A stretch of 21,589 bases of DNA. It comes from a virus. Positions within the stretch are counted from its first letter, which is position 1; every line of letters starts with the position of its first letter. This document shows positions 3,297 to 21,589 of this stretch, in pieces. Below the pieces are notes generated by a model that worked only from the letters and a program-made list of their open reading frames with translations, had not been told where the DNA came from and ran no database searches. The translations under genes were made by a program, and so were the position numbers. The stretch covers positions 1-21,589 of IMG/VR virus record IMGVR_UViG_3300025030_001400; one strand, written 5' to 3'.

Positions 3297-3346
3297 AACC
3301 TTGCATTAAATGCGGATCAATCTTGCAATCATATCAAGAGTGCTAA
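3293..3346 (+). pseudogene. 17-codon zinc-ribbon remnant between the two methyltransferase-type genes
   Basis: GTG 3293 overlaps the methyltransferase TGA (3294-3296) and reads MKPCIKCGSILQSYQEC before TAA 3344-3346. The CxxC near the start resembles the beginning of the zinc ribbons that open many phage HNH/homing endonucleases and small zinc proteins. It stops after 17 residues, and unrelated sequence follows up to the next gene. It may be the stump of a gene replaced by the CmcI-like cassette, or a chance micro-ORF. Confidence 0.35.
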
Positions 3347-3385
3347 ACATCCTGTAGACTTCATGCAGAGCAAAGGATATTTACT

Positions 3386-4135
3386 ATGAACAAAAATGTT
3401 CCCCACATATTGATTGATTTGGAAAATAAAACGCTCAATGGCGAGCCGCTCTATAGCAAAGCATCATTTGATCTATTGAACGAACTGCAAATCAAGGTCG
3501 GCTGGGAATTGCGATACCCATACACTGCATCATGGTTAGGTTTCCAACTTCTTCAAATCCCGCCTGATGCCCTACGAATTCAGGAGATCATCTACCAGCA
3601 ACGTCCTGATTTCATCGTAGAGACCGGCGTTGCGCACGGTGGCTCGGCGATCTTTATGGCAAGCATCTGCAAACTGATGGGTATTGGTCATGTAATCGGG
3701 GTAGAGAAAGGGCTTATTTGCCGAGAACAAATCGAAGCCCATGAACTTTCAGAATACATTACCCTCATCGAAGGTGATTCTGTTGGTAAAGAAATTGTGG
3801 ATCAAGTGTATAGATCATGCAGTGGAACGGATCGCGTTCTCCTTATCCTTGATAGTTGCCACAGCAAAGCTCACGTACTGGCCGAACTTGAGGCATATGC
3901 TGGTTTGATTCGGCCAGGGTCTATGATTATCGTGCAGGATGGGAATATGGCTACTCTGTGCGATACGCCGCGTGGTGATCCAGCTTGGCTACAGAACAAC
4001 CCACAAGAGGCTGTAAAGGAATTCATCAAACGACACCAAGAATTTATCATTGAGCAGCCTGACTTGAAGTTTGACAATGACGGGATAGCGAGTAACATTA
4101 CCTATCATACGAATGGATTCCTGAAAAGAATCTAA
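3386..4135 (+). CDS. CmcI-family SAM-dependent protein (annotated cephalosporin hydroxylase / rhamnosyl O-methyltransferase family)
   Basis: 249 residues of the CmcI fold. VETGVAHGGS (78-87) is the SAM-binding glycine loop. GVEKGL (105-110) ends the second strand. LDSCHSKAHV (155-164) is the metal/catalytic strand with conserved D and H, and QDGN (184-187) follows the next strand. Members include CmcI and rhamnosyl O-methyltransferases, and many lie in polysaccharide clusters. Beside a glycosyltransferase and a sugar C-methyltransferase, O-methylation of a sugar is more plausible than antibiotic hydroxylation. AAAGGA (3372-3377) precedes ATG 3386 by 8 bases. The gene is separated from its upstream neighbour by 89 bases containing a zinc-ribbon remnant, so it may have entered as its own unit. 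The family call is firm; the substrate is inferred. Confidence 0.82.
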   Translation: MNKNVPHILIDLENKTLNGEPLYSKASFDLLNELQIKVGWELRYPYTASWLGFQLLQIPPDALRIQEIIYQQRPDFIVETGVAHGGSAIFMASICKLMGIGHVIGVEKGLICREQIEAHELSEYITLIEGDSVGKEIVDQVYRSCSGTDRVLLILDSCHSKAHVLAELEAYAGLIRPGSMIIVQDGNMATLCDTPRGDPAWLQNNPQEAVKEFIKRHQEFIIEQPDLKFDNDGIASNITYHTNGFLKRI

Positions 4136-4244: not shown

Positions 4245-4859
4245 ATGAAACAGTTTTATACCTACCTTCACTGCCGCCCGGACGGGATGCCGTTTTATGT
4301 TGGCAAAGGTGGTGGTAGCAATAGCGAACGTCATCATGATTTCAAATGGAATAGAAACAAACACCACAAAAATATCATCGCCAAGCACGGTGCTGATAAC
4401 ATCCTTGTTTACATTTTCCATTGCGATTCAGAACAGCAATCGTTAGATGATGAAATTCAGCAGATCGCGCAGCTTCGCCGCGAAGGCTATGAGTTAGTCA
4501 ATATGACAGATGGTGGTGAAGGTACGAGTGGACTCAAGCATTCTGCTGAAAGCCGCGCCAAAATGTCTATTAATAGTCAAGGTAAAAATTTAGGTTTAAA
4601 GAGATCATTCGAAACACGCGCGAAGGTTGGTGCTGCTAAAAAAGGGAATAAATATTGTCTTGGTTTAAAACGCCCTCCTGAATTTGGAGCTGCAATATCA
4701 GCACGGCAATTAGGCAAAAAACCATCACCAGAATCTGTTGCAAAAATGGTTGCTACAAAAACAGGTAAATCATGGTCTGCTGCCAGAAGATTAGCGTTTG
4801 AAAATAGTAAATTCGTCAACATCAGGAACAATGTCAGCGGACAATTCAAAAGGAGATAA
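4245..4859 (+). CDS. GIY-YIG endonuclease with NUMOD3-like DNA-binding repeats (homing-endonuclease type)
   Basis: 204 residues. The N-terminal nuclease domain has YTYLH (5-9) and FYVGKG (17-22), the two halves of the GIY-YIG motif. A helix carrying the candidate catalytic glutamate follows (DDEIQQIAQL, E70), then NMTDGGEG (86-93). The C-terminal half is built of NUMOD3-like repeats: GLKHSAESRAKMS (96-108), GLKRSFETRAKVG (117-129), and GLKRPPEFGAA with GKKPSPESVAKM (140-150, 157-168). Such modules grip DNA in phage homing endonucleases. The gene is free-standing, with no intron or intein visible around it, and AT-richer than its neighbours. It starts directly on the stop of the 30-residue leader. 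It probably cuts related phage genomes at this locus. Confidence 0.87.
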   Translation: MKQFYTYLHCRPDGMPFYVGKGGGSNSERHHDFKWNRNKHHKNIIAKHGADNILVYIFHCDSEQQSLDDEIQQIAQLRREGYELVNMTDGGEGTSGLKHSAESRAKMSINSQGKNLGLKRSFETRAKVGAAKKGNKYCLGLKRPPEFGAAISARQLGKKPSPESVAKMVATKTGKSWSAARRLAFENSKFVNIRNNVSGQFKRR

Positions 4860-5469: not shown

Positions 5470-7677
5470 ATGCAAAAGTTCGATGAGCCTCTTGTAAATC
5501 AACTCACCGGTCTTCCACTGGCCGGCATCAGCGTAACGATTCAGAATTATCCAAGCGGAGCGACCGCGACGATTTATGGATCCAATGACGTTTCGTCTAC
5601 TCCGCTAACCCAGCCGCTCACCTCTCAAGCCGACGGCACATTTCCGTTCTATGCCGCAGACGGTCACTATCAAATAGTCGCAACCCCACCAGGCGGACAG
5701 CCGGTGGTCACCGACTTTCTAATGCAGGACATCACTCAAGCGGCCGGGATCAACGTAGCATCCCAGACCCACGCTGCCGCTGCAAAAACAGATTTGGACG
5801 AAGCCGATGAATTCCCGCTTGCGGACAGTGCTGTTAGTTATGGATTGAAAAAAATTCAGTGGTCTGATATCAAGAATGCGATCTTAGCGTTATTTTCACC
5901 AAGTTCCGGTTCTTCCTTAATCGGCTTCCTCCAATCCGGTACTGGTGCTGTTGCGCGCACTATGCAGGAGAAGGGGCGTGAGGTCGTAAGCGTTAGGGAC
6001 TTCGGTGCGGTTGGGGATGGGGTGACTGATGACACAGTTGCATTTCAATTAACAGCATCTATGGTTGACGGGTTTGTTACTCATTCCTCTGTCTATGCAT
6101 CTATGCCGTCTGCACCTTTTGCAAAAATATTTGTTCCACAAGGCAATTACTTGATTACAACCGACATAGATACTGAGGGCAAGGATATTATTTGGGTTAT
6201 TGAAACCGGGGTAAATATTACAGGATTGGATTTTCTTAATGGTAGAGTTTATAGGGAAGGACTTCGTATCAATGCTACACATCATGGCATTCTCGACCAT
6301 GCTTGTTCTTTCGCAATAAATGCACACAGAACAAATAGTCTTGGAAAACCAGCAGGTATTTTTGGTATCACTCACCCAAATCAACTATCTTCATATTCAG
6401 ACCGTGACTCTGTAGGTTTATATTTTGAAAACAAAGCTGCTGCCCCTGTGGATACCTGTGTAGGATCAAATTATACTGCTTCAACTCTTATTCCGGTGAC
6501 GCCAGTGGATGTGACTAAGCTAAGAATAGGGATGATAATTGATACTGCCCACTCCCCTAATAAATATTCAGGGGTAATTACAGAATGGGCTTCAGATGGC
6601 ACACAAGTAACTGTGTCAGCGTGGTATGAGGTAACAGGGACAACAGGAGTGGCAGGAACTCCGCCGAATGGTGTCGATGCTTATATTAATCCTTTTACGA
6701 AGGCATGGGCAGGTAATGCGCAAATAGAACTTGACGCAAATTCTATAGCGACTCGTGCGGTAGGAATGGAACTTGGATGTAGGAATTCAAAGACGGTTTT
6801 AGCCATTGGTGACGCAGACTCTGCAACGAATTATGTATGGGGTTATGATGCGGTAAGTTTTGGGCCTAACTATTCAACCTCTGGGTTTATTGCTAGAGGG
6901 GGATTTCTTCGTGGTTTTCATGCGTCAGGAAACATTGAAGCAGGAATCTCTGTAACCGCTCGTAACGGGGTATTTCCAGTCACAGGGTTTGAATCCAGAT
7001 GCGACTCCGCATATCAAATTAATTGTATGCCTGACGGGGTAAACTCAGCGTTTAATGTCAGAAATAGTGGCACAATGGATATAGGCAGTTCTGCTACAGC
7101 AGCAAGCAGGTTCATTAGACTACGCTCATCTGGACTTACTGCTGATTACGATGCAAGAATTTTGTGGAGTGGTGGTAGTGCTTCGACAGGTCAGGGAACA
7201 TTGAGATTTACTGCGGCAACCTTAGAAGCACAAGGGGTTTTCAGACCTTATACAGATAATTCATCATCACTTGGTGGGGCATCTAACAGGTGGACAACTG
7301 TATATGCAACTACAGGTACAATCGACACATCAGATGCCCGCGAAAAACAGGACATATATCTGTTGGATGAAGCTGAGAAACGGGTAGCATTATCCCTTAA
7401 AAAACTTGTAAAAAAATTTAGGTTCAAAACTGCCGTTCAAGAAAAGGGTGCTGATGCTAGAATCCACGTTGGAGTTATTGCACAAGAGGTTATCTCTGCG
7501 TTTGCAGCAGAGGGATTAAATGCCCATCGCTATGGCATCCTTTGTTACGATGAATGGGAAGAGCAAATTGAAAAATTGGATGTCTCCGGGGAAGTATTGC
7601 AAGAACAACGGATTGCTGGTGATATGTATGGTATTCGGTACAATGAGTTACTTGCCTTTGTTATAGCAGCGCTATAA
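5470..7677 (+). CDS. Tailspike/tail fibre with S74 intramolecular chaperone
   Basis: 735 residues. Residues 1-80 form a beta-rich attachment module (MQKFDEPLVNQLTGLPLAGI..., ADGTFPFYAADGHYQI). A linker leads to RDFGAVGDGVTDDT (176-189), the usual entry to a pectate-lyase-like beta-helix of phage tailspikes. The centre is Gly/Asn/Thr-rich and AT-rich in DNA, suggesting an exchanged receptor-binding part. The C-terminus is a peptidase S74 chaperone starting at TSDAREKQDI, with the Ser-Lys dyad expected at S621 and K626. It cuts itself off after trimerisation. The frame ends at RYNELLAFVIAAL. A coiled-coil continuation typical of S74 proteins runs on in a different frame to 7796, so this end looks frameshifted. 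GGAAAGG (5457-5463) is a modest ribosome site. Confidence 0.88.
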   Translation: MQKFDEPLVNQLTGLPLAGISVTIQNYPSGATATIYGSNDVSSTPLTQPLTSQADGTFPFYAADGHYQIVATPPGGQPVVTDFLMQDITQAAGINVASQTHAAAAKTDLDEADEFPLADSAVSYGLKKIQWSDIKNAILALFSPSSGSSLIGFLQSGTGAVARTMQEKGREVVSVRDFGAVGDGVTDDTVAFQLTASMVDGFVTHSSVYASMPSAPFAKIFVPQGNYLITTDIDTEGKDIIWVIETGVNITGLDFLNGRVYREGLRINATHHGILDHACSFAINAHRTNSLGKPAGIFGITHPNQLSSYSDRDSVGLYFENKAAAPVDTCVGSNYTASTLIPVTPVDVTKLRIGMIIDTAHSPNKYSGVITEWASDGTQVTVSAWYEVTGTTGVAGTPPNGVDAYINPFTKAWAGNAQIELDANSIATRAVGMELGCRNSKTVLAIGDADSATNYVWGYDAVSFGPNYSTSGFIARGGFLRGFHASGNIEAGISVTARNGVFPVTGFESRCDSAYQINCMPDGVNSAFNVRNSGTMDIGSSATAASRFIRLRSSGLTADYDARILWSGGSASTGQGTLRFTAATLEAQGVFRPYTDNSSSLGGASNRWTTVYATTGTIDTSDAREKQDIYLLDEAEKRVALSLKKLVKKFRFKTAVQEKGADARIHVGVIAQEVISAFAAEGLNAHRYGILCYDEWEEQIEKLDVSGEVLQEQRIAGDMYGIRYNELLAFVIAAL

Positions 7678-8547: not shown

Positions 8548-10002
8548 ATGTTGAGCCCGATTTTTGACAGTTTCAATCGCGACAGGTCAAGAAGTGGGAA
8601 TACTGACCAGTGCGTGAACATTTATCCTGAAGACATCGACGGGCCGAAGGGGCCTGAAATCGGACTGCTTATCAGCGTGCCCGGAAAGCGGTTGCTTGGA
8701 ACAATCGGCCCCGGCCCGATCAGGGGGATGTACGAAGGCAACGATGGACTGATGTACGTGGTAAGTGGTGCCGGGGTGTATTCGGCCACCACAGGGTACG
8801 CGGGCACCCTGCTCGGCACGATTGACAGCAGTTCTGGTGCCGTGTCGATCATCAACAGCCCAACACAAATTCTTGTTGTGGACGGTACCGGCGGATGGGT
8901 GTGGGATAGGGTTGCGCTGACCTTTACGAAAACCATCGAAAATGCCGGGACTGATTGCGTGAATCCTACGGCCGCCATTTATCAGGACGGCTTCGGCATC
9001 GTCAACTCTGACGACAATCAAATCTACCAGACGAACTACAACGACCTGGCCGCGATGACATCCGGATCACCGGCGACGGCAAACAATGCATATGTCCAGA
9101 ACAGTTCAAAAAATGTGGTTACCTTGTTCGACCTGAAGGAAGAGGTTTGGATATTCAAGGAAGATTCGATTGAGATATGGATCAACCAGGGAGCAGCCGG
9201 TTTTGCCTTCACGCCGCTGCAGGGCGTGTCTATCCCGGTCGGCTGTTCCGCGCTGGCATCCGTGGCGCAACTTGGCGAAAGCATCGCATGGCTTGGTGGC
9301 AGCGAACAAGGCAACGGCGTGGTGTATATGTCGGTAGGCTATCAAGCCGTCCCGATTACCACCCCCGCACTATCAACCCGGTTCCAGAATTTTTCATCCT
9401 TGTCTGATGCGGTTGCCTGGGGGTATCAGAAGGACGGGCATTATTTCTACGTGATCACGTTCCCAATCGAAGGGGAATCGTGGGCATATGACCTGAAAAC
9501 CAAAAAGTGGCACCGCCGCGCGGGGTTCAATAATGGCGTCATGACACGCGACATCGCCAATTGTTCCGTATTTTTCAACGGGCTGAATATCGTTGGCGAC
9601 TACCAGAACGGGAACATCTATGCGCTGGATAACGAGGTTTTTACCGACAATGGGATGAACAGGAAATGGGTGCGGTCGTGGCGCGCGCTTCCTTCTTCCA
9701 TGCCGCAAGGTGTACCAATGAGCTTCGATTCACTCCAGATTCTGCTGGAAACCGGCATCACCGTGCCCGCCGGGACGAACCCGCAGATCATGCTGCGCTG
9801 GTCAGACGACGGTGGGTACACATGGACGCAGGAATTTCAAGTTCAAATGGGCAAGACGGGCGAAACATCATGGCGCGCAATAAAGATCCGTTGCGGTTCA
9901 ACCAAAATCGGTACCGGCATGGACCGTATTTGGGAAATCTCAGGGGTTGATCCGGTCGAAATCAAGATCACTGGTGCTACCTTTGAGGGCGGCCCAGCAT
10001 AG
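8548..10002 (+). CDS. Packaged-DNA stabilisation protein, P22 gp10-like tail hub
   Basis: 484 residues, close to the ~472 of P22 gp10. The N-terminus has the family-type opening (SFNRDRS...QCVNIYPEDIDGPKG) leading to VPGKRLLG. Repeated beta-propeller-like blades follow: GPIRGMYEGNDGLMYVVSG, WIFKEDSIEIWINQG (about 197-211), and a block with ALASVAQLGESIAWLGGSEQ and DGHYFYVITFP. A later segment AYDLKTKKWHRRAG resembles the gp10 region with a Trp-bearing strand. In P22, gp10 sits between gp4 and the tail needle, stabilising DNA in the head. No Shine-Dalgarno precedes ATG 8548; with the upstream stop at 8543-8545, translation is probably coupled. The family call comes from pattern and neighbourhood. 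Confidence 0.8.
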   Translation: MLSPIFDSFNRDRSRSGNTDQCVNIYPEDIDGPKGPEIGLLISVPGKRLLGTIGPGPIRGMYEGNDGLMYVVSGAGVYSATTGYAGTLLGTIDSSSGAVSIINSPTQILVVDGTGGWVWDRVALTFTKTIENAGTDCVNPTAAIYQDGFGIVNSDDNQIYQTNYNDLAAMTSGSPATANNAYVQNSSKNVVTLFDLKEEVWIFKEDSIEIWINQGAAGFAFTPLQGVSIPVGCSALASVAQLGESIAWLGGSEQGNGVVYMSVGYQAVPITTPALSTRFQNFSSLSDAVAWGYQKDGHYFYVITFPIEGESWAYDLKTKKWHRRAGFNNGVMTRDIANCSVFFNGLNIVGDYQNGNIYALDNEVFTDNGMNRKWVRSWRALPSSMPQGVPMSFDSLQILLETGITVPAGTNPQIMLRWSDDGGYTWTQEFQVQMGKTGETSWRAIKIRCGSTKIGTGMDRIWEISGVDPVEIKITGATFEGGPA

Positions 10003-10671: not shown

Positions 10672-11078
10672 GCGTTACCAAACTAAATATCAACGCCGCC
10701 ACACCGCTGCTTGTCGGCAAGGATGACCGGATTTCGCCGGCATGGTACAATATCCTCTCCGCACTGATTCCCGGCGGCAGAAGCATCCAGGCGCCGCTCG
10801 ACGGGTTCAGTATCACGATCGAGGATGGAGTCGAAACGCTTATCCTGAACCCTGCCAGCGCGCTGGCAGCCGGAACGATCATCATGCCATCTGGCGCGGG
10901 TGATGGTGCCAAGGTAAAAATCACTTCCACGCAAACCATTACTACTTTGACAATTACCGCAGCGAAAGGGCAAACCGTCATGGATGCACCGACCGAACTT
11001 ACGGTTAGTTTGATCGCGCCGTATGGTTATGAGTTTGTTTTCGACGCTGATAGTGCTACGTGGTACCGGGTGCAGTGA
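10668..11078 (+). CDS. Small beta-structured phage virion-type protein
   Basis: 136 residues. The sequence reads as repeated short beta strands: FSITIEDGVETLILNPASAL, AAGTIIMPSGAGDGAKVKI, TQTITTLTITAAKGQTVMDAP and a C-terminal YEFVFDADSATWYRVQ. The pattern LNPAsaLAaGTIimPsgagDGakVkI...Qtittlti...aTWYRV recurs in small proteins encoded in phage tail regions and in fibre C-termini, and suggests a trimeric beta fold with a terminal Trp-Tyr-Arg strand. The start overlaps the upstream stop (ATGA), and the stop overlaps the next start (TGATG). It may form a tail tip, knob or decoration. It lies where P22-like phages have tail-needle functions, but it does not resemble the coiled-coil needle gp26. 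Confidence 0.65.
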   Translation: MSVTKLNINAATPLLVGKDDRISPAWYNILSALIPGGRSIQAPLDGFSITIEDGVETLILNPASALAAGTIIMPSGAGDGAKVKITSTQTITTLTITAAKGQTVMDAPTELTVSLIAPYGYEFVFDADSATWYRVQ

Positions 11079-11539
11079 TGGATGACTTGGTGACCGACCC
11101 ACGGGAAAGACTGAACGAACTGCAACGGGTGATGAGCACAATGCCGCAGGCAGAGGGGTTGGTAACCACGCATCACTTCGTACCCGGCCAATATTTGCGC
11201 AAGCTCTGGCGGCCAGAGGGCACGGTGATCATCGGTAAAGTGCATAAAGCACCGCACTTCTTCCTGTGTGCCATGGGTGAGATCGCCGTATCATCCGGGG
11301 ATGGCAACTGGAAGACGTTGAAAGCCGGGGATGTGATCGAATCGCAACCGGGCACAAAGCGCATCACGGTGGCCTTGACTGACGCAATCGGGATAACCGT
11401 ACACCAGACCTCACTTACCGACCTTGACGAAATCGAAGCTGCACTGATCGAGCCGGATGAACTGGCTTTGTTTGATGCGCGGAACGAGTTGCGAAATTTG
11501 GAAATTGGGGACACAATGAACAAACTAACGTCGGGATGA
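11078..11539 (+). CDS. Cupin-fold phage protein
   Basis: 153 residues from ATG 11078, which overlaps the previous stop. A GTG six codons upstream (11060) is less likely because it lies inside the neighbouring gene. The core runs THHFVPGQYLRKLWRPEG, TVIIGKVHKAPHFFLCAMGEI, KTLKAGDVIESQPGTKRI and ITVHQTSLTDLDEIEAALI. The order of strands, the HKxxH pair and the PGTKR turn are those of small cupin-like proteins repeatedly found in phage structural operons. Metal binding through the His residues is possible. The function in phages is unknown to me; its position suggests a virion component or assembly factor. The next gene begins 15 bases downstream with its own excellent ribosome site. Confidence 0.7.
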   Translation: MDDLVTDPRERLNELQRVMSTMPQAEGLVTTHHFVPGQYLRKLWRPEGTVIIGKVHKAPHFFLCAMGEIAVSSGDGNWKTLKAGDVIESQPGTKRITVALTDAIGITVHQTSLTDLDEIEAALIEPDELALFDARNELRNLEIGDTMNKLTSG

Positions 11540-11554
11540 TGTAAGGAGGTAATC

Positions 11555-12307
11555 ATGTCTTGGGTATATGCAGCAGTAGCAGTGGGTGGCGCATTGATTG
11601 GCGGTATTGCATCTAATCGTGCAGCCAATACGCAATCTGATGCCGCGAACAACGCCACCGCCGCGCAACAGGGCATGTTCGGAACAACGCAGCAAAATCT
11701 GCAACCGTACATGGAAGCCGGGCGCGCACCGCTGGCTCAACTGGTCTCAGGAACACAGCCCGGCGGCGATCTCATGCCGCAATCGTACACGCCATACGAC
11801 ATCGAGAAATTCAAAGCCTCACCTGAATACCAGATCATGATGCAGCAGAATGCAGAGGCGCTCAACGCATCGCAGAATGCCTCTTCTCTGTCCGGCGGCG
11901 CGAACAGCAATAACATGAAGAGCTTGATGGGGTGGACGCAAGGCAATGCAGTCAACCAGTATCAGACCGGCCTGAGCAATTATCTCCAGCAGTTCCTGAC
12001 TGGCAATCAGGCCAAGGCGCAGCAATTCGGTACATACCAAACGCTTGCCGGCATGGGGCAGAATGCCGCCGCTGGCCTGGGCGACATCGGAACAAAAGTC
12101 GGCGGGCAAATCGGCGAAAATATCATCGGTGCCGGGAACGCGCAGGCAGCGGGCACAGTCGGGGTAGGCAATGCGATCACCGGAGCCATGGGGCAAGGTT
12201 ATAATTCCTGGTTGCAGCAGCAATACCTGAACAAGTATGCGTTGAATAACGGCATGTCTGGTGCAGAGTATTCGAATGCAGAAGGCGTGCCGATTACTTT
12301 GCAGTAA
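11555..12307 (+). CDS. DNA-ejection (internal virion) protein with N-terminal glycine-zipper helix
   Basis: 250 residues. AAGGAGGT (11543-11550), a near-perfect ribosome site, precedes ATG 11555. Residues 4-20 (VYAAVAVGGALIGGIAS) form a hydrophobic glycine-zipper helix able to enter a membrane. An Ala/Gln/Asn-rich helix with QQGMFGTTQQNLQPYMEAGRAPLAQLVSG follows. This arrangement (helix, QxxLxPYxxAGxxAL, then SPEYQ and long Ala/Gly/Gln-rich helices) is characteristic of podovirus DNA-transfer/ejection proteins. They are packed in the head, leave with the DNA and help form the trans-envelope channel. The Gly/Ala-rich stretch around IIGAGNAQAAGTVGVGNAITG may be a second membrane-active segment. 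It probably acts with the next two gene products. Confidence 0.78.
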   Translation: MSWVYAAVAVGGALIGGIASNRAANTQSDAANNATAAQQGMFGTTQQNLQPYMEAGRAPLAQLVSGTQPGGDLMPQSYTPYDIEKFKASPEYQIMMQQNAEALNASQNASSLSGGANSNNMKSLMGWTQGNAVNQYQTGLSNYLQQFLTGNQAKAQQFGTYQTLAGMGQNAAAGLGDIGTKVGGQIGENIIGAGNAQAAGTVGVGNAITGAMGQGYNSWLQQQYLNKYALNNGMSGAEYSNAEGVPITLQ

Positions 12308-12317
12308 AGGATAAATC

Positions 12318-13430
12318 ATGCCCGTAAATAGTCAAATCCCACTGCAAGTCCAGCAACCTCAATTCATGACCCCCTTCGAGGGGATGTCAGGCGCGCAAAC
12401 CATTCAACAGCAGATGCAGTCAACGCAACTGAACCAGCAGAAACTTGCGGCCGGCCAGCACGAATTGAACAATCAGATGTTGTTGTCCAGAATCGCCGCC
12501 GTGCCGGGCAGCATCGATCCAGCAACCGGGCTTTGGTCGCAGACCGCTATCGACAGCATCGTTCAAGCAAACCCTGTTCTTGGGCGGGATATTCTGCAAA
12601 AACAGACCAAAGACAAAATGGCTATCGAGCAATTAAGCCTGCAAAAAAATAAAAACCTGGCGGCAATGCACAAGGCAGGTTCTGACGCTATCAATGACGA
12701 GCAGCTTGATGCTGTTGGCGCAGCAGATGCGGCACCCGCAGAAAAACGCGAAGAGGTTTATGCCGCTAAATGGGCGGAAGGGCGTGCCCGGCTGAAGAAG
12801 ACCGGACTTTTTTCAGAGGATACGCAATTCGCTGATATGTCCTACAAACAGGCAAAGGAAATCTTGTTGCGTCGCGGCGGCAAAGAAGACAAGAATGCGG
12901 TTCAAGATATTGCGAATGCGCGCGACATAATCAACGATCTAAAAACAGAGTATTCCCATCTGGATTCGAAAAGCCCGCAGGCTGCGCAGATCATGGAAAA
13001 GATTCGTGATGGTGAAGAGGCAATCAAGCGGATGAAAGCAATGCCAGGCGGAGAGAATAAAGAACCATCCAACATTCAAACTGCCCGGATATTGCTGGAG
13101 AACAAAAACAATCCTGATTTCATCAACGCATTCAAAATGGGTAAAAGCTCTGCCGATCCGGTTGGAGTTACAGCCAGCGCGCTGTACAAATCGTATACCG
13201 ATGAAGATATGTGGCCGTCAGAAATTGAAGATGCATCGCAGGATGAAAAGGTTGCCTATGTGCGGAAACTTGCCGGTGCTTTGCACAATAAAGAATCTGG
13301 GGTTAAAAAGGATGAAGTTGTCACCCGGTTCGAGGGCGACAAGGACATGGAGGGTATGGTCCTTGGCAAGAAGACTGCCAAAGGCTATGAAGTGATGAGA
13401 GGTGGCAAGCTGGCCGGGTATTATCAGTAA
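12318..13430 (+). CDS. Helical internal virion / ejection protein
   Basis: 370 residues, ATG 12318 with AAAGGA (12306-12311) 6 bases upstream. The N-terminus is Gln/Pro-rich (QIPLQVQQPQ...), then comes GAQTIQQQMQSTQLNQQKLAA and a long, charged, largely helical body (KQTKDKMAIEQLSLQKNK, AEGRARLKK, DIANARDIINDLKTEYSHLD) with few cysteines and no strong membrane helix. The sequence family is not recognised by name. A helical Gln/Lys/Asp-rich protein between a glycine-zipper ejection protein and a giant virion-delivered protein fits the second of the usual trio of podovirus ejection proteins. The C-terminus KTAKGYEVMRGGKLAGYYQ looks like a short beta element. Its stop TAA overlaps the giant gene's ATG (TAATG), so the two are translated in strict sequence. 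Confidence 0.72.
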   Translation: MPVNSQIPLQVQQPQFMTPFEGMSGAQTIQQQMQSTQLNQQKLAAGQHELNNQMLLSRIAAVPGSIDPATGLWSQTAIDSIVQANPVLGRDILQKQTKDKMAIEQLSLQKNKNLAAMHKAGSDAINDEQLDAVGAADAAPAEKREEVYAAKWAEGRARLKKTGLFSEDTQFADMSYKQAKEILLRRGGKEDKNAVQDIANARDIINDLKTEYSHLDSKSPQAAQIMEKIRDGEEAIKRMKAMPGGENKEPSNIQTARILLENKNNPDFINAFKMGKSSADPVGVTASALYKSYTDEDMWPSEIEDASQDEKVAYVRKLAGALHNKESGVKKDEVVTRFEGDKDMEGMVLGKKTAKGYEVMRGGKLAGYYQ

Positions 13431-16400
13431 TGCCATTCATCCCACTCCAAGAAAATGACGCATCTATGCAACGGCCAGATGGGTCACAGAAAGGCATGGG
13501 TTTTCTTGGGCCACTTAAATTTCACGATGGAAGAACTTCTACAGAACTTTCTGTTGGTGTAAATATAAATGGCAAGGAAACCGATATTCCTGCTTTAGTA
13601 CCAACACTTTCAAAAGATGAAATATCTTATCTATTGAGCGGTGGCAAGCCAACTGATTCTATCGTCATAAAGGCGCGCCAGCACGCTGAACAGCGCATCA
13701 AACAAGGTAAATCTGTCTTTGCTGGTCCTGATGATTATCAAGCACAGCAAACGAAAAAAATTGGTTTCACACCACTAGCGGATGCTGATGAGCCAACAAT
13801 TGCGGCGAAGCGCGGTTTCACGCCGATCGAAACACATCGCACATGGGGCAAAGCAGCGCAGGATCTCGCATCCAAGTTATACGCTCCAGACAAACAGCGC
13901 GAATATGACCGCACCAACGCGGCGATGCGCGACCATCTCGCGCTTGAACAAAATCCGATAGTTCCCGGCATACAGCGCAACTCAGGCGGCACGATTGAAG
14001 CACCTGTCTCCGCGCTTATGGCTGCCAGCCGCCGTGATGCGCAACCAACCAGCGCGTTAAGCGATAGCACAGAAGTTGCCAGGCAATTGGTCGCTGGCGC
14101 GGTGACGCGCACACCTGAAATGGTTGGATCAGCACTTAATTGGTGGGCACCGGAAGGGTCTGAAGCAGAGCGTTTAGGCAAGGTCGCAAAGGAATACTGG
14201 AAAGAAAAAGGCAAGGGATGGGAGCCTGACTTGAAAGGTCGCGGGGTTGTCGCATCCACGCTGATTGAGGGCGCCGCGCAGGTTGCCCCGTCCGTTTTAG
14301 GTATGGCCGCAGCGGCAGTAAATCCGATTGTTGGCGGCACTTTTGTGGCAATGCTCTTTGGCGGACAACAGGCTCAGGAAACATACGACAAAGGAATCGC
14401 TGCCGGATTACCACCAGAAGAGGCAACGCAGGCCGCCTACCGCACTGGGCTGATTGAAGGATTTGGGGAAACAATCGCCGATGTCACTGGCGCAAAATTA
14501 TTGTCCGGCGCCGGGAAAGCGATCTGGACTGCCTGGAAAGGAACGGCAGCCGGCGCAGCAAAAGCCGCGACCTCTCCGCAATGGGCAATGCGCTTTGCGA
14601 AGGACTGGACGGCGAATGCGACCATTCAATCCGCGACAGAATATGGTCAAGGCTATGGTGAGGCCGCTGTTGAAAAGGCTTATGGAGTTGATACCCAAGC
14701 CCCGAGTCAGGCTGGCGCACATGGCGCGCGCGTGGCTCTGGGCATGTCTGCCTTGCTTGGTATCCCAAGTGCTGTATCACAACGCAATATGGGGCAAAAT
14801 AGGGCAAAGATCGGCGAATTGCTGAATGACCCCAATGCCCCGGAAGAACTGCGCATCGGCGCGGCGAAGTTCGTGGCCAGCGACATATCGCGAGACGTTG
14901 GCAAGGAAAAGGCGGATCAATGGCTTGGGCAAGTAACCAAAGCAATCTCAACCACAGTGCCAGCCGATACCGCGCCGAGTGCGGAGTCCGTCCCACAAAT
15001 TCACAAACCAGAGAAAGCCGATGCCCTCGAAGCCGCCGACCTACTGTCAGAAGCCAAGGCAACGCCTGCAAATGCTCCCGCTGCCCAAGGCTTCACCCCG
15101 ACTGAACCGACGCAGCCAAGGCCCAAACGCGGCCCAACTGACGAAGAATCTGCACAAATGGCAAAGGACGCTGCCGCCTACCGGAAACTTCAGGAGGAAA
15201 CGCAGACCAAATCCCCACCACCCGCCCCGCCCGGTGCGCCGACTTTCACACCAGAGCCTGGCGATGTGCCGACAGCACCGCGCCATGCCGTCGCCGGGTT
15301 GCCGGTCCAGGAAATGCCGTTAAACGACTTGAAATTATCTGGGGAAGTGCCACAATTCAAGAAGGCGGCGAACGCTGCAGGAATCGTCATGCCGCTGGGC
15401 GGGAATTTTGACCGCACCGGGGTAGCGCCGATTCAGGTTTGGGAGCGGCTGAATGGCGACATGGAGATCATTTCCGGCCGGCACCGGTTCGATCTGGCCA
15501 AGCGCAGCGGCGAAGAGACATTGCCGGCGCAGATCCACCGCGAAGCCGATGGGTTCAATGTAAGACAGGCGGCCCGGCTGGATGCCGAGCTCAACATTCG
15601 AGACGAACAAGGAGGGGTGTCAGATTATGCAAGCTACTTCAAAAACTCTGCTATCGCGGAAAAGGACGCCGACGCAGCAGGACTTTTGGCGCGGCCAAAG
15701 GGAAAAGCTGGATTCGCAATCGCGCGAGACGCAGGAGAGGATGTCTTTGCCTCGCATAGTGCCGGTATCATTTCCGACGAAGCAGCCCTTGCAATAAGCC
15801 GGGCAGCACCCGGCGACAACACCATTCAGGCAGTCGGCCTGAAGATGGTGAACGAAGGAAAGAGCATCACCCTGGCCGAGAACACCATGCGCGCCATCAG
15901 CATGATGCAAAAGAACGGAGAAGCCAAGCCGGAACAGGGCGACATCTTCGGGTTCGATGACTCCGCCATCCGGGAAGCAGAAGCCATGGCCAAGCGTGCC
16001 GCCGCAGCGCAGCGCGCCATCCGGGAACAACTCGCCTCCGTGTCCGGGGCCACCAAGCGCCCGGAGATCGCCCGCAAGCTGGGCGTGGACGTGAAGGACC
16101 CGGAAGCTGTCAAAGCCAAGATCGCCGAACTGCATGCTGCCGCGAACCGGCTGGCCAACTGGCCGACACACCCTGACTTGGTGAAGGAATTCCGCGGTGT
16201 TTCACGTGAAACAGAGGCCAAGCCAGCAGCCAAAGCAGAACGCCGCCAGACCCACGCAGAGCGCCGCACGCGCTACGCCGCGATGTCGCCGGACGAACTG
16301 CGCGCCGAACTGGAAGCAAAAGACCGCCGCATCTTCACCAGCCACTTGACCGGGTTGCCGAATAAAGCCGCCTATGAAGAGGTAGCCAAGATGCCGGTAC

Positions 16401-19400
16401 AGGCCTTTGCCGACATTGATGGGCTCAAAGGGGTCAACGACACGCTTGGGCATGACGTGGGTGATGTGCTGATCCAAGCACTGGCTGGCGCGCTGAAAAA
16501 GGAAACCAATCAGGCTTTTCACATCAGCGGCGATGAATTCTATGTCCAGGGCGAGACGGTCGCCGATGTGGAAGCGATCATGAATGCCGCGCTCAAAACC
16601 CTGTCTGAACAGGGATTCGAATACACCGCGCCAGACGGCACCGTTATCACCAAGAAAGGAATGGGGTTCAGCTATGGAACAGGGAAAGACATCAAATCAG
16701 CCGAAGAGAGGCTATACGCCGATAAGCAGGCCCGAAAAGAACTCGGGCTCCGTACTGAACGCGCCGACACTCCAGCGGTGGCTGCTAAACCTGCCGCCGG
16801 GCGGAAAATTGAAACTGAAAAACAAGCCGTAGAAACCATTGGCCGTGCCGACGCGACCGAAGCAGAGAAGCAGGCTGCATGGGATGTACTGCACAAAAGC
16901 GCTGAGAAACCAACGAAAGGAATTACCGATGATAAAACCGCCGAAGCCCAGCAAAACAAACAGATCAAGAAGACCACGCAAAAAACCTTAGATAGAGAGT
17001 CTGCCAGTTCTCATCCTGCTGCAGAAACATCCGCTGTTCCGCCCATTATACCTAAAAATGCCACAAGTGATCCCCTCAAACCCTACATTGACACGCTGAT
17101 CAAACGCAAACGCTTTGCCGACGAGATCCACCTTGGCCGGAAACTGGATGCCGCGATCAACAAGGCCAAAGCCGCGATGCAGTCCGGTACCGGTACACCG
17201 GCCGACTTCACCAAGGCCGCCAAGTGGTTCCGCGACAAGGATACGGTGACTGAAAAGGCTTTGCTGGATATTGCGGATACGCTCAAGGGCAAGTATGTAG
17301 CCAAGGCCAAGCAACCCGAAAAACCAAAATACGAAACAGGCGTTCCTGTATCTGCAACTGTTTATCATGGCAGCGATCATGGCAACATAAGCCGGCAACC
17401 CTCTGGACTGACATTTTTTACAGATGACAAGGCCGCAGCAAAGCGCTACGGCAAGAATGTTGCACCTGTTCAAATCCAGTTGAAGAATCCATTGGTCATT
17501 GACTATAAGGAAGCTGATGATTCAGAGTTAATTGGCTTTGATATTCAGGACGCAATGGAAACCGGGCATGATGGAATCGTTGCGCTGAATACCGATGACG
17601 GGAAGCAGATACTCAATCAGTTCGTGGTATTCAAGCAACCAGCCGCCGAAGCTGGCAAGATCAAAGGCTATGCTGGGCAACATCGGCCTGTTACAACCGA
17701 GGGCGGCGCAGCACGGTTAGATGATTTAACTCCTGCATTCGGAGAAGATATTTACGGGAAAGATGCGGCGCAGTTTTTTGGCACCGGGGACGATACATTA
17801 GATCAAGAAACTTTGCGAATTCTAACATCTATCAGAGGCAATCCAGACGCATTGATAAGCGTTTATCGTGCAGTGCCAAGAGGTGAGCCAAGCCAAGAAA
17901 CAATAAACCCAGGAGACTGGGTTAGCGTCAATAAAAAATATGCTGCACAGCATGGGCAAGCAACGCTCAGAGGAAAATATAAAATAATTGAGCAGAAAGT
18001 GCGCGCAGCAGATTTAACGACAAACGCAGACTCATTCCATGAGCAAGGATATTATCCGAAGACCAAGGAAACCGACAAAGGATCCGCCCTTTATTCGCAA
18101 GGCCAAGCCACCGTAAATCCCCATACAGTTTCATCCCTGAAAACCGCCCTGATCGAAGCCCACATCGGCAAGGATAAACTCGCTCTATCAGCCATGATGG
18201 AAGCTGGCAAGGCGAAGGTGATTACGGCGGAACAGGCTGGGGGGATTGTTGGGGATAAGTTGTTTGCCGACATACCAGTGTTTGATGACGGCGATAAAAT
18301 TTCGGAATACTTTTCTGGAATGATTGACTTTAAATACGACGATGCCCCGTGGGGTGTGGCGGTTCTTCGTGATGATGGAGTTGTTGCAATTGGAGACGGT
18401 TTAGATAATAGTTTTGAATGGATAGAAGGAAGTAAAGAAGAGACTCTTGAATTAAATGGCTTATCAACCGTTGGGATAAACGATGATTTGTCAGATGAAT
18501 CTATATCAAGTGCAGTAAATTATCTTCTTGATAATTATGGATTTGAAGGTTCTCAGGTGGTGCTTGTAAGGGGGACATCTGCATTCGGCGGACAAGACAG
18601 AAATGAGTCCGTGATTAAAGACCCCGTGGTCGAGGCTATAGCATTTTACGGAAAAGGCCCATCAAAAGACGGAAAGCCAACTGCATTCTACAACCCCTCT
18701 GACGCGACAACTTATTTCATCGCTGATAACCTATCCGCAGACACCACAGCAGCCGACCTGAAAGGGCTTGTAAGGCATGAGATTTCTACGCACGCGCTTC
18801 ACTTAGGCCGCGATAGCAAGGAATTCCAATCCATCCTACGCCAGCTTGATTTTATGAAGGGGAACGGCAACAAGAAGGTGATGGAAGCCTTTGCGCGTGT
18901 GCCCGCTGATACCGCGCCGGAGCACGTGAGCGAGGAAAGTCTGGCCTATCTCGTGCAACACAATCCAGAACTCGGCATCGTCAAGCGCGTGATCGCCTGG
19001 TTCCGTAATTCAATCCGCTCTATCCTGTCAAAAGGAAAGTTGGCTGACTGGGCAAATAGACTGACCACCGATGATCTTCAGTACATGGCGCAGACCGCTT
19101 TATCGAGAGACAATGGTATTGAATCACGTGAAGGGGCACTGCTTTACGATGCACCCGCTGACAAATTCTATTCTCAGTTGCGGGTAGTGATGCGCGATGC
19201 CCCAGACAAGATATTCGGCAATGCCGCATCCGTGAAGCTATGGCTGCAAGCGAACGCAGCGAAGAATGAAATCAAAAAAGATGAGCTATTTTGGACGGGG
19301 ATTACCGACTGGTTTGATATTCAAGGCAAGGTCACCAAGGCCGACGTGCTGGCGTTTCTTGACCAGAATGGCGTGCGCGTGGAAACGAAGGTGCTTGGTG

Positions 19401-21589
19401 AAAACATTGAGCCTATCAGACTGACCCAAAAAGAAAATGACGAATATAGCAAACTTGACGGCATGGATGAGCGTGGAGTATTGCCGGACAATTTACGCGA
19501 ACGTTACCAAACACTTCATGCGCTAGTTTCTTCTGCGCTTGCAACATCGGAGAATAATTACAAAAAAGAAACCAAACACGGCGGCGGCAACCTAGTCCTA
19601 CCCGGCGGCTCCAATTACCGCGAAATGGTACTGATTGCACCGCAAGCAGAGAAGTGGGGCGAGAGCGACACAACCCACTACGGCGATACCGGGGGAGGCA
19701 AAGCTATCGGCTGGCTGCGCATGGACGACCGCACGACTGCGGACGGGAGAGAGGCGCTGTTTCTGGAAGAGTTGCAGAGCAAGCGTGGGCAAGCAATAAG
19801 AACCGATGGGATTTTAACTCCTGACACGCATCAAGATGAACGTATTGCCCTAAAGAAGCAACTGAACGAAGCACAAGATAAGGCGCGAGAGTTGCGCGAG
19901 CAAGGCGGTGATTGGACAAATCCTCCAGATGGTTTATGGAACCAATATCAAGACGTTATCGCTGAGACAAACCGTATTGATGACGAATTAAGAAAAATAC
20001 CCTCTCCGCGTGGAGTTCCGTCCATGCCCTTCGTCAGCGACTCAAGTGGAAAAGCAACTCAAGCATACATCACACTCAGCATGAAGCACGCAATCCTTGA
20101 CGCCATCGAACGCGGCAAGGACGTGGTGACGTGGACAACCGGAAAGCAGCAGAAAGACCGGTATTCGCTTTCTAAACAGATTCAGTCGCTATCGTGGGCT
20201 AAATACACTGATGACAAAGTTGACCTGTTTGCTGTAAAAAATGGCGGCACAGAAGAAAAGATGGGCAGATATAGCCTTGGCGAATTGCCAGATGTTGTTG
20301 GCAAAGACTTGGCGAAAAAAATATCCGATGAATTTTCAACTGGTGCGGTGAATGGCGAATATAGCGGCCTTGCTCTGGACGTAGGCGGCGAATGGACAGA
20401 TGCCATGTACGGCGACGAGAACGGGTTGAACGCCAAAGGCCAGCCAAGCATGATGACGCAGGCGGTGAACGGCATCTTCAAGCAGTTGAAGATCGAGGGG
20501 AAGGTTGAGAGTTTTGCGATGCCAACAAAACCTTGGAAAGTTACTGATAGAAACGGGAATATCTATCTATTTGACAATCGCACAGAAGCTGATGAGTATG
20601 GAGAATCGTCTGATGGAATAACAAGTAAAGCAGAAGGAGAAACGCAGCCTGGCTTCACCATCACCCCAGAACTCCGCGCCAAGGTAATGAACGAAGGGCT
20701 GCCGCTGTTCAGCCGCGAGAGCAACATCGGCGATACCGGGCGGGAAAGAGCGCCGATAGTTCCATTGGTATCAGAAGCCATCACCGGAGACAGATTCACT
20801 CTGCCCGGCGAAACTCAAGCGCAACTGTCACAGCGTAAGATACAGAACGCACAGAACCGCTGGAAGGTCATTCAAGATGCCGTTGTTGAGCAAGGGGGAA
20901 CAATCACCGAAGAAACGAACGTGGCGGACGCGATGGAACGCTTCCCTGGGCGTGTCGCCGCAGCGATGCTTGACTTTGGGAACAACAGACTGGAGCCGAT
21001 GATGAAGCAGATCGTTTCGTCTGGAACCACGCTCGATGATGTAAGTCTGTTGGCCTATGCTGAACACGCCCCAGAGCGCAACCGTGAAATGGCGAAGATC
21101 AACCCGCTGTTCCCGAATGATGGGACTCCAGGTAAATCTGGTTCTGGCATGACAGACCAAGATGCCGCAGATATCATCGCCCACTTCAAGGCGCAACAGA
21201 ACGCCAAGGATGTGTTCGCGCTGACCAACGATTTGCGCGCTATTGCCAATAAACGGCTGGACAAGCTCGCTTTGAGCGGGTCTATGTCACAGGAGCAGGT
21301 CAACGCATACCGGGCGAAATACACGGCCTATGTCCCACTCAAGGGGTTTGAGCCGATTGACGAGGCTGGGATACCCAACGGAACCGGGAAGGGTTTCTCG
21401 ACTGGAAAGAAGATAGATATGCGTGCGCTGGGTCGCGGAAGCCGCGCCGGGCAGGTGGCGCAGAATGTCTTCAGGGATTACCAATTAGGGCTTTTATTGG
21501 CTGAAAAGGCACGGCTTGGCAAGGTCGTAGCGGCCTTTGTAAAGGCTAACCCCGACAACGCCCTATGGACGGTCGGAGAAGCGCCCAAG
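13430..21589 (+). CDS. Giant polyvalent ejected protein (partial, at least 2720 residues)
   Basis: The frame opens at ATG 13430, overlapping the previous stop, and is stop-free to the right edge: 2720 codons with no C-terminus yet. Order of parts: 15-100, a virion-type N-terminal module; ~275-400, a hydrophobic Ala/Gly-rich segment that may enter membranes; ~624-740, ParB/DdrB-like; 964-~1080, GGDEF; ~1309-1404 and ~1428-1544, two ADP-ribosyltransferase-like domains; 1618-1731, an AT-rich unknown insert; ~1745-1850, HExxxH metallopeptidase-like; ~1908-2430, a large polyvalent-associated domain ending in LPLFSRES; ~2450-2720, a further LPD-type domain cut by the window edge. Pro/Ala/Lys-rich linkers separate them. 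Family knowledge: polyvalent proteins travel in the virion and carry several host-takeover or counter-defence activities. Helicase or methyltransferase domains often follow and may lie beyond the window. Domain calls are from motifs read by eye. Confidence 0.85.
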   Translation, partial: MPFIPLQENDASMQRPDGSQKGMGFLGPLKFHDGRTSTELSVGVNINGKETDIPALVPTLSKDEISYLLSGGKPTDSIVIKARQHAEQRIKQGKSVFAGPDDYQAQQTKKIGFTPLADADEPTIAAKRGFTPIETHRTWGKAAQDLASKLYAPDKQREYDRTNAAMRDHLALEQNPIVPGIQRNSGGTIEAPVSALMAASRRDAQPTSALSDSTEVARQLVAGAVTRTPEMVGSALNWWAPEGSEAERLGKVAKEYWKEKGKGWEPDLKGRGVVASTLIEGAAQVAPSVLGMAAAAVNPIVGGTFVAMLFGGQQAQETYDKGIAAGLPPEEATQAAYRTGLIEGFGETIADVTGAKLLSGAGKAIWTAWKGTAAGAAKAATSPQWAMRFAKDWTANATIQSATEYGQGYGEAAVEKAYGVDTQAPSQAGAHGARVALGMSALLGIPSAVSQRNMGQNRAKIGELLNDPNAPEELRIGAAKFVASDISRDVGKEKADQWLGQVTKAISTTVPADTAPSAESVPQIHKPEKADALEAADLLSEAKATPANAPAAQGFTPTEPTQPRPKRGPTDEESAQMAKDAAAYRKLQEETQTKSPPPAPPGAPTFTPEPGDVPTAPRHAVAGLPVQEMPLNDLKLSGEVPQFKKAANAAGIVMPLGGNFDRTGVAPIQVWERLNGDMEIISGRHRFDLAKRSGEETLPAQIHREADGFNVRQAARLDAELNIRDEQGGVSDYASYFKNSAIAEKDADAAGLLARPKGKAGFAIARDAGEDVFASHSAGIISDEAALAISRAAPGDNTIQAVGLKMVNEGKSITLAENTMRAISMMQKNGEAKPEQGDIFGFDDSAIREAEAMAKRAAAAQRAIREQLASVSGATKRPEIARKLGVDVKDPEAVKAKIAELHAAANRLANWPTHPDLVKEFRGVSRETEAKPAAKAERRQTHAERRTRYAAMSPDELRAELEAKDRRIFTSHLTGLPNKAAYEEVAKMPVQAFADIDGLKGVNDTLGHDVGDVLIQALAGALKKETNQAFHISGDEFYVQGETVADVEAIMNAALKTLSEQGFEYTAPDGTVITKKGMGFSYGTGKDIKSAEERLYADKQARKELGLRTERADTPAVAAKPAAGRKIETEKQAVETIGRADATEAEKQAAWDVLHKSAEKPTKGITDDKTAEAQQNKQIKKTTQKTLDRESASSHPAAETSAVPPIIPKNATSDPLKPYIDTLIKRKRFADEIHLGRKLDAAINKAKAAMQSGTGTPADFTKAAKWFRDKDTVTEKALLDIADTLKGKYVAKAKQPEKPKYETGVPVSATVYHGSDHGNISRQPSGLTFFTDDKAAAKRYGKNVAPVQIQLKNPLVIDYKEADDSELIGFDIQDAMETGHDGIVALNTDDGKQILNQFVVFKQPAAEAGKIKGYAGQHRPVTTEGGAARLDDLTPAFGEDIYGKDAAQFFGTGDDTLDQETLRILTSIRGNPDALISVYRAVPRGEPSQETINPGDWVSVNKKYAAQHGQATLRGKYKIIEQKVRAADLTTNADSFHEQGYYPKTKETDKGSALYSQGQATVNPHTVSSLKTALIEAHIGKDKLALSAMMEAGKAKVITAEQAGGIVGDKLFADIPVFDDGDKISEYFSGMIDFKYDDAPWGVAVLRDDGVVAIGDGLDNSFEWIEGSKEETLELNGLSTVGINDDLSDESISSAVNYLLDNYGFEGSQVVLVRGTSAFGGQDRNESVIKDPVVEAIAFYGKGPSKDGKPTAFYNPSDATTYFIADNLSADTTAADLKGLVRHEISTHALHLGRDSKEFQSILRQLDFMKGNGNKKVMEAFARVPADTAPEHVSEESLAYLVQHNPELGIVKRVIAWFRNSIRSILSKGKLADWANRLTTDDLQYMAQTALSRDNGIESREGALLYDAPADKFYSQLRVVMRDAPDKIFGNAASVKLWLQANAAKNEIKKDELFWTGITDWFDIQGKVTKADVLAFLDQNGVRVETKVLGENIEPIRLTQKENDEYSKLDGMDERGVLPDNLRERYQTLHALVSSALATSENNYKKETKHGGGNLVLPGGSNYREMVLIAPQAEKWGESDTTHYGDTGGGKAIGWLRMDDRTTADGREALFLEELQSKRGQAIRTDGILTPDTHQDERIALKKQLNEAQDKARELREQGGDWTNPPDGLWNQYQDVIAETNRIDDELRKIPSPRGVPSMPFVSDSSGKATQAYITLSMKHAILDAIERGKDVVTWTTGKQQKDRYSLSKQIQSLSWAKYTDDKVDLFAVKNGGTEEKMGRYSLGELPDVVGKDLAKKISDEFSTGAVNGEYSGLALDVGGEWTDAMYGDENGLNAKGQPSMMTQAVNGIFKQLKIEGKVESFAMPTKPWKVTDRNGNIYLFDNRTEADEYGESSDGITSKAEGETQPGFTITPELRAKVMNEGLPLFSRESNIGDTGRERAPIVPLVSEAITGDRFTLPGETQAQLSQRKIQNAQNRWKVIQDAVVEQGGTITEETNVADAMERFPGRVAAAMLDFGNNRLEPMMKQIVSSGTTLDDVSLLAYAEHAPERNREMAKINPLFPNDGTPGKSGSGMTDQDAADIIAHFKAQQNAKDVFALTNDLRAIANKRLDKLALSGSMSQEQVNAYRAKYTAYVPLKGFEPIDEAGIPNGTGKGFSTGKKIDMRALGRGSRAGQVAQNVFRDYQLGLLLAEKARLGKVVAAFVKANPDNALWTVGEAPK
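15299..15650 (+). other. ParB/DdrB-like domain inside the giant protein
   Basis: Residues ~624-740. LPVQEMPLNDLKLSGEVPQF resembles the opening strand of ParB-like domains, VAPIQVWERLNGDMEIISGRHR follows, and SGRHRFDLAKRSG (682-694) is the ParB GxHR-type box II. DdrB-like ParB domains are a known component of polyvalent proteins; nuclease or CTP-linked DNA-binding activity is possible. Confidence 0.7.
16319..16670 (+). other. GGDEF (diguanylate-cyclase-like) domain inside the giant protein
   Basis: Residues ~964-1080. HLTGLPNKAAYEEV is the canonical opening (D.LTGLxNR-like). FADIDGLKGVNDTLGHDVGD contains the metal-binding D995 and substrate-binding N/D residues, and HISGDEF (1031-1037) is the signature loop. 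The inhibitory I-site position (RxxD ten residues before the loop) reads KETN, so product inhibition is probably lost. The C-terminal part GFSYGTGKDIKSAEERLYADKQARK matches the usual final helix region. Confidence 0.85.
17354..17640 (+). other. First ADP-ribosyltransferase-like domain (H-Y-Q type)
   Basis: Residues ~1309-1404: VYHGSDH (H1313), FFTDDKAAAKRYG (Y1340), IQLKNPLVIDY, HDGIVAL and NQFVVFKQ. The order matches PARP-like ART domains of phage proteins. The residue at the catalytic Glu position is Gln (Q1397), which may abolish or change transfer activity. Confidence 0.6.
17711..18061 (+). other. Second ADP-ribosyltransferase-like domain (R-S-E type)
   Basis: Residues ~1428-1544: ISVYRAVPRGE (R1480), GDWVSVNKKYAAQHG (S1499) and NADSFHEQGYYP (E1538). 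The three elements, in this order, match ART-fold domains that recur in phage and polyvalent proteins, with the R, S and E positions all kept. Confidence 0.6.
18662..18980 (+). other. HExxxH metallopeptidase-like domain
   Basis: Residues ~1745-1850: PTAFYNPSDATTYFIADN leads to the helix LVRHEISTHALHLG (H1783, E1784, H1788), and SEESLAYLV (E1835/E1836) may give the third ligand. The HExxxH spacing, rather than HExxH, is usual for the polyvalent-protein peptidase family. Confidence 0.65.

Follow-up and report, generated by a model that had tools for sequence, protein, structure and literature searches.

We analysed a 21,589-nucleotide stretch of viral DNA (the window, which derives from a virus record of 21589 bases) and found that the giant polyvalent-type protein it encodes contains a genuine GGDEF domain at residues 966-1103. 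The domain belongs to a phage-borne GGDEF lineage in which the catalytic site is kept and the inhibitory site (I-site) has been lost almost without exception. We infer that it is probably an active, product-uninhibited diguanylate cyclase of this lineage, carried in a virion-linked giant protein and delivered together with the DNA.

Identification of the GGDEF domain

The original prediction had placed a diguanylate cyclase-like GGDEF domain with an intact active site at positions 16319-16670. Pfam PF00990 matches residues 966-1103 (16325-16738; E 5.2e-11, 43 bits vs. a curated cut-off of 23.8), and because the score is above the cut-off, the GGDEF domain is more than a chance match. Thus, the domain is indeed located there, but the predicted extent was too short, as the conserved unit covers approximately residues 952-1115 (16283-16774). 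phrog_5594, a family of unknown function that carries no functional label in PHROGs, matches the whole of the GGDEF unit (residues 959-1115, E 2e-19). The DIDGLKGVND, KETN, and SGDEF motifs all share the single open frame at 13430-21589 on the + strand. The features of the domain are as follows.

13430..21589, + strand: giant polyvalent-type protein, 2720 residues within the window, with an open frame lacking a stop before the window end
16283..16774, + strand: GGDEF domain including the Arg-rich tail, as kept in the phage lineage (residues 952-1115, from the alignment)
16412..16441, + strand: DIDGLKGVND (residues 995-1004), with metal Asp995, Lys1000, and guanine-site Asn1003
16499..16510, + strand: KETN at the I-site position, without RxxD (residues 1024-1027)
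16526..16540, + strand: SGDEF signature (residues 1033-1037), with Asp1035 and Glu1036
16724..16726, + strand: Lys1099, counterpart of the triphosphate-binding Lys (Lys in 48 of 48 lineage rows)
16751..16774, + strand: lineage-specific tail RTERADTP (family RAxRGExP), from the alignment, with low confidence in the AlphaFold2 model

The diguanylate cyclase signature reads (G/S/A)G(D/E)EF, with G, S, or A tolerated as its first letter, and the SGDEF of the window is accompanied by a complete set of the residues for metal, guanosine triphosphate (GTP), and guanine (D995, K1000, N1003, D1012, SGDEF, and K1099). The active site is therefore intact as originally claimed, and the numbering given for D995 and E1036 was correct. 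For Asp995, Lys1000, and Asn1003 we assume the roles of their counterparts in PleD, and Lys1099 presumably corresponds to the Lys that binds the triphosphate in the same protein. An RxxD I-site is common among diguanylate cyclases, though not required. At the position that we take, from the offset in PleD, to be that of RxxD, the window reads KETN, in agreement with the predicted absence of an I-site.

Conservation of the catalytic residues and loss of the I-site in phage relatives

A viral scan by alignment that included Yuavirus-type genes, with two motif patterns, identified 54 loci. The ORF (open reading frame) at the match is 1,020-5,971 residues long in 47 of these and 175-957 residues long in the other 7, with several cut by locus ends. 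Eight relatives were scanned against Pfam and all eight matched GGDEF above the cut-off; some of them also contain InPase, RadC, GNAT, methylase, or helicase partner domains. We then compared 48 aligned rows, consisting of the window, two phage records (L002 and L003), and 45 of the 54 viral loci. The other nine loci were excluded as near copies (L025, L026, L030, L038, and L058), as Yua/Bordetella-like (L056 and L061), as cut (L059), or as weak (L064). Forty-four of the rows lie in long ORFs and four in short stand-alone genes.

The metal Asp and the second Asp of the DxD motif are present throughout (48/48), as are the Lys332- and Asn335-equivalents, a further Asp, GDE, and the C-terminal Lys (Lys442-equivalent). 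The guanine-contacting Asp (Asp344-equivalent), which is Asp1012 at this second base-contact site in the window, is found in 43/48. In contrast, RxxD at the exact I-site position occurs in a single lineage row (1/48, L017), as opposed to 47/49 comparison rows. The latter comprise 48 cellular genome-scan loci (D[SG]LKW[VI]ND pattern, many closely related) and the SP-15 phage gene, after dropping L111 (a fragment) and L119 (GGVEF, unmatched by the script); it should be noted that both the lineage and the comparison sets were collected by motif. The lineage also carries a C-terminal tail with Arg at two positions, each in 47/48 rows, which is common to the polyvalent and stand-alone versions.

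Predicted structure

The AlphaFold2 model of the domain (46 alignment rows) has a predicted local distance difference test (pLDDT) score of 91.7 and a predicted template modeling (pTM) score of 0.81, with the Arg-rich tail poorly ordered. Its best PDB matches in Foldseek are DgcR, PleD, and other GGDEF proteins. VIA-align superimposed it upon a Marinobacter GGDEF protein (3ign; Z 17.1, 1.7 A over 134 residues), PleD (2v0n; Z 15.7, 2.3 A over 134 residues), and DgcB (6tts; Z 17.4). A structure prediction with an overlay upon PleD had been proposed as a check of the fold, and the GGDEF fold is indeed borne out by the model, the PDB matches, and the Pfam match alike. PleD, WspR, and DgcR have both the fold and the catalytic residues in common with the window domain. 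Compared with the 49 comparison rows, however, the phage lineage lacks RxxD, has the extra tail, and is shortened at two places. The stretch before DxD has a lineage median of 22 vs. 33 residues, a spacing that was readable in 41/48 lineage rows with at least one misread (minimum -71), hence the use of the median alone, while the DxD-to-GGDEF spacing has a lineage median of 38 (range 37-42) vs. 41 in all 49 comparison rows.

Scans independent of the catalytic motifs

As a check for selection bias, two patterns avoiding the catalytic residues were scanned, one from the C-terminal tail and the other from the N-terminal LTGxxNRRAY. The tail pattern gave 17 stretches yielding 14 family members, 13 of which keep the catalytic core; half of the 14 contigs (seven) had come up in the 54-locus scan, and the core is kept in 6/7 of the new ones. 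The N-terminal pattern gave 25 stretches, and none of the 23 complete members has lost the metal Asp, Lys, Asn, Asp, or GDEF. One of the other two matches is unrelated (L227) and the other is truncated at the end of its contig (L222). Of the 23 contigs, four are new relative to the 54-locus scan and 19 overlap with it; three pairs have an identical domain sequence. Neither of the two outcomes named as refuting the original prediction, a model without the GGDEF fold or homologs with freely varying metal-binding residues, was observed: the catalytic residues do not vary freely, though rare damaged versions occur (L127 and L068, described below).

A distinct phage lineage

In a tree of 84 rows calculated by a quick maximum-likelihood method, 59 lineage rows split from 25 others (24 cellular rows and Bacillus phage SP-15) with a Shimodaira-Hasegawa-like approximate likelihood ratio test (SH-aLRT) support of 97, with 39 of the 81 inner branches open. 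Nine stand-alone rows form one group (SH-aLRT 93), and the SP-15 GGDEF falls among the cellular rows on a long branch. A scan of genomes from 84,980 species with one motif pattern, which sets a lower bound, returned 55 loci. Clearly lineage-like scores were found only in L065-L069 (102-216 bits with the lineage profile), while the other 50 scored ≤83, including the fragment L111. With the same profile, scores as low as 80 are seen for stand-alone phage rows, and therefore the score alone cannot part lineage from cellular rows. L065-L069 are lineage rows from metagenome bins labelled bacterial, and we infer that they are phage DNA in bins or prophages.

Of 12 close pairs, 7 had a finite dS, and their ratio of nonsynonymous to synonymous substitution rates (dN/dS), calculated by hand, was 0.04-0.24. 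None of these pairs includes the window, which has no close relative; dS was saturated in 5/12 pairs and >2 in three of the 7, and L047 was left out because its first codon is rendered as M by the alignment tool. BLAST of the GGDEF domain against phages matched 108 records, with ≤36% identity at ≥80% query coverage among the matches listed and up to 46% identity among the shorter matches listed. Against plasmids, 970 records matched, and the 60 listed have ≤36% identity, with the annotated ones being mostly ordinary diguanylate cyclase/EAL proteins. No relative emerged from a single-protein scan of viral contigs, and PADLOC gave no match. The gut "Bacteriophage sp." records L008-L010 are unverified and unannotated and were not used.

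The giant protein and its gene neighborhood

The original prediction had described the domain as part of a phage-delivered protein. The frame at 13430-21589 is a giant phage protein with several distinct regions that adjoins virion genes.

8548..10002, + strand: head closure Hc3 (phrog_578, E 2.1e-82)
11060..11539, + strand: short tail fiber protein (phrog_12032, E 3.6e-30)
11555..12307, + strand: DNA ejection protein (phrog_598, E 4.3e-24)
15281..16246, + strand: region before the GGDEF domain, possibly ParB-like (residues 618-939; sub-threshold Pfam ParB_N, E 0.039)
17357..17563, + strand: possible ADP-ribosyltransferase (ART-PolyVal; E 9e-6, sub-threshold at 26.9 bits vs. a curated cut-off of 31.2)
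17645..18073, + strand: phrog_2579 match, "ParB C-terminal domain" in PHROGs (residues 1406-1548, E 2.1e-30)
18767..18808, + strand: LVRHEISTHALHLG, putative zincin-like metallopeptidase motif (motif only)
20795..21589, + strand: region similar to "DarB-like antirestriction" proteins (residues 2456-2720; 31-33% identity, Burkholderia phages)

GGDEF is the sole domain of the giant protein above its Pfam cut-off. Residues 618-939 share 47-48% identity with Vibrio and Shewanella phage proteins, several of which are annotated as DNA methylase, and the C-terminal region matches phrog_616 (residues 2459-2715, E 3.7e-35); thus, residues 618-939 and 2456-2720 match different proteins from different phages. 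A zincin-like metallopeptidase hub domain is common in phage polyvalent proteins, though not required. HEISTHALH is what we take to be such a motif, and the Pfam scan gave no hit at this site. With several unrelated domains and a gene among virion genes, the giant protein has the make-up of a phage polyvalent protein as PMC5512222 describes it. Upstream of its gene, PHROGs identified tail spike/fiber, head closure, short tail fiber, and DNA ejection proteins. DNA ejection proteins likewise precede the giant gene in the relatives L015 and L017, and head closure- or short tail fiber-like relatives of window proteins occur near the giant gene in L011, L012, L019, L028, L045, L049, and L054.

Proposed function and alternatives

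Judging from the adjoining ejection/connector genes, the polyvalent protein would enter the cell together with the DNA. The conserved residues suggest that two GGDEF copies could then pair, each holding one GTP, to form cyclic dimeric guanosine monophosphate (c-di-GMP). Because the I-site is gone, the product would not switch the enzyme off, and messenger levels could rise early in infection from a small number of delivered copies, possibly with the consequences for host motility, biofilm, or defense signaling considered in the original prediction. With the catalytic site kept and the inhibitory site lost, the prediction is a GTP turnover that is insensitive to product. If the enzyme is active, phages would be handing over a second-messenger enzyme ready-made, and a virus would be adding a signaling nucleotide instead of removing one.

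Several observations weigh against a product-uninhibited diguanylate cyclase delivered on entry. Loci were selected by motif, and the counts for Lys, Asn, and the signature GDE are partly built in as a result. The Asp344 site has Asn or Thr in five of 48 rows, and only 39/48 have His at the His340-equivalent position. The window itself lacks both a lineage Trp (47/48 rows) and a tail Gly (44/48 rows), and the weak relative L064 lacks the first motif while keeping SGDEF. The second Asp of DxD is Val and Glu in L217 and L226, respectively. In the polyvalent-type L127 (reverse strand, tail pattern 37-77), the catalytic core is gone between intact ends of the GGDEF unit, as if by an internal deletion, and L068 (356-847, bacterial bin), which has a long tree branch, carries SGAEF, in which Ala takes the place of the acidic metal-binding residue. 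Lastly, only 8/66 searched loci contain relatives of the window neighbors, and among 19 neighbors of relatives compared with PHROGs, 13 were unmatched, two matched ejection proteins, one a short tail fiber, and three other families.

The damaged L127 and L068 would fit a domain that binds GTP without turnover and serves as a sensor or structural piece, a version of which (an inactive nucleotide sensor) had been raised in the original prediction. Degenerate GGDEF sensors exist, and the sensor versions are usually without catalytic residues. Here, these residues are kept in 48/48 aligned rows as well as in 13/14 and 23/23 members of the motif-independent scans, the second Asp aside in two, making a sensor or structural role less likely than it would otherwise be; we assign it a small probability.

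The variation at the Asp344 site in five of 48 rows could also be read as a sign of an active nucleotide cyclase whose main product is not c-di-GMP but a mixed cyclic dinucleotide or a linear one, aimed at nucleotide-based immunity. Hypr GGDEF proteins, synthases of cyclic GMP-AMP (cGAMP), have Ser at the Asp344 position, where the window has Asp1012, so that Asp stands at the second base-contact site. Polyvalent proteins do carry many anti-host enzymes and such a role was raised in the parts of PMC5512222 compared here. However, the guanine-selecting Asn is present in 48/48 rows (a count to which the search pattern itself contributes), and the Panoptes work, in the portion consulted, associates guanine with Asn and adenine with Ser (PMC12657218). 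A product other than c-di-GMP therefore seems unlikely to us.

The timing of action might differ as well, with an active domain working late in the producing cell or via lysogeny instead of on entry. The giant gene sits among late genes, and the stand-alone Yuavirus/Vojvodinavirus relatives lie amid genes annotated as exonuclease, antirestriction, SprT, or hypothetical. Biofilm formation was increased in lysogens of Bordetella phage LK3, for which the authors suggest its GGDEF gene, with no test of that gene in the parts compared (PMC8471281). On the other hand, fusion into a giant protein next to ejection genes fits packaging, and phage polyvalent proteins are described as typically near virion genes in the parts of PMC5512222 compared. 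The chance of late or lysogenic action appears slighter still than that of the other two alternatives.

A more far-reaching version of the delivered diguanylate cyclase, which we regard as rather doubtful, is a packaged, purpose-evolved, feedback-free cyclic dinucleotide synthase firing in the first minutes of infection and flooding the cell with nucleotide. It might thereby keep inhibitory-signal (Panoptes-like) effectors quiet or override host c-di-GMP control, and the tail could be a lineage-specific addition at the active site or for contact with a partner.

Relation to known systems

The occurrence of GGDEF domains in phage polyvalent proteins and the same interpretation have been in print since 2017. 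In the parts of the article compared, Iyer et al. proposed cyclic nucleotide signaling on invasion that would either disturb the nucleotide responses of the host or be directed at rival elements, and termed GGDEF in polyvalent proteins "not very widespread" (PMC5512222). Their GGDEF likewise lies inside a giant multidomain phage protein, while the I-site status, the link to stand-alone genes, and the tail are unmentioned in the main-text parts compared (PMC5512222). What the present analysis adds is the lineage, its near-universal I-site loss, the shortened fold, and the conserved Arg-rich tail.

The stand-alone Yuavirus/Vojvodinavirus GGDEF proteins (MP1412_43 and FP1 APL99338) belong to the same lineage (36-43% identity), lack the I-site, and have the same tail, but they are single genes of 156 residues without the polyvalent fusion. 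An annotated antirestriction gene comes after the stand-alone GGDEF gene of MP1412, AN14, and Churro (KlcA in MP1412, L002 8504-8932; L006 3066-3479; and L007 3034-3447, respectively).

OptS/mCpol of Panoptes, as described in the parts of PMC12657218 consulted, has a related palm fold and makes cyclic dinucleotides in phage conflict. It is, however, a host defense protein in which the GGDEF motif is nearly absent, whereas the window has SGDEF, and the counter-defenses described in those parts deplete defense nucleotides (PMC12657218). Regarding an assayed phage GGDEF enzyme, we found no report in the open literature by title or abstract start (partial listings, with subscription journals mostly outside).

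Pyrophosphatase domains

Pfam identified InPase in 5/8 relatives scanned, and a profile made from those five matched 14 of the 54 viral-scan ORFs. Eight of the 14 have InPase within 50 residues of GGDEF on either side (L011, L017, L042, L029, L035, L039, and L040, with L029 and L030 being copies). InPase was considered as a GGDEF partner for pyrophosphate removal and rejected: as a control, only 2 of the best 80 InPase loci (of at least 543 relatives) have GGDEF in the same ORF, both on contigs already known, with 10 kb flanks that can cut ORFs. Therefore, we claim no specific InPase-GGDEF partnership, and the Pfam scan of the window protein found no InPase.

Other genes of the window

At 562-4132, genes for a family 2 glycosyltransferase, a C-methyltransferase, and a rhamnosyl O-methyltransferase/CmcI-like protein adjoin the tail genes and possibly serve surface-glycan modification. 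A NUMOD3-motif protein, perhaps a homing endonuclease, is encoded at 4245-4859 between the methyltransferases and the tail spike. The tail spike itself (5470-7677) has a pectate lyase-like domain, a match to an endosialidase tail spike family, and a C-terminal S74 endosialidase chaperone.

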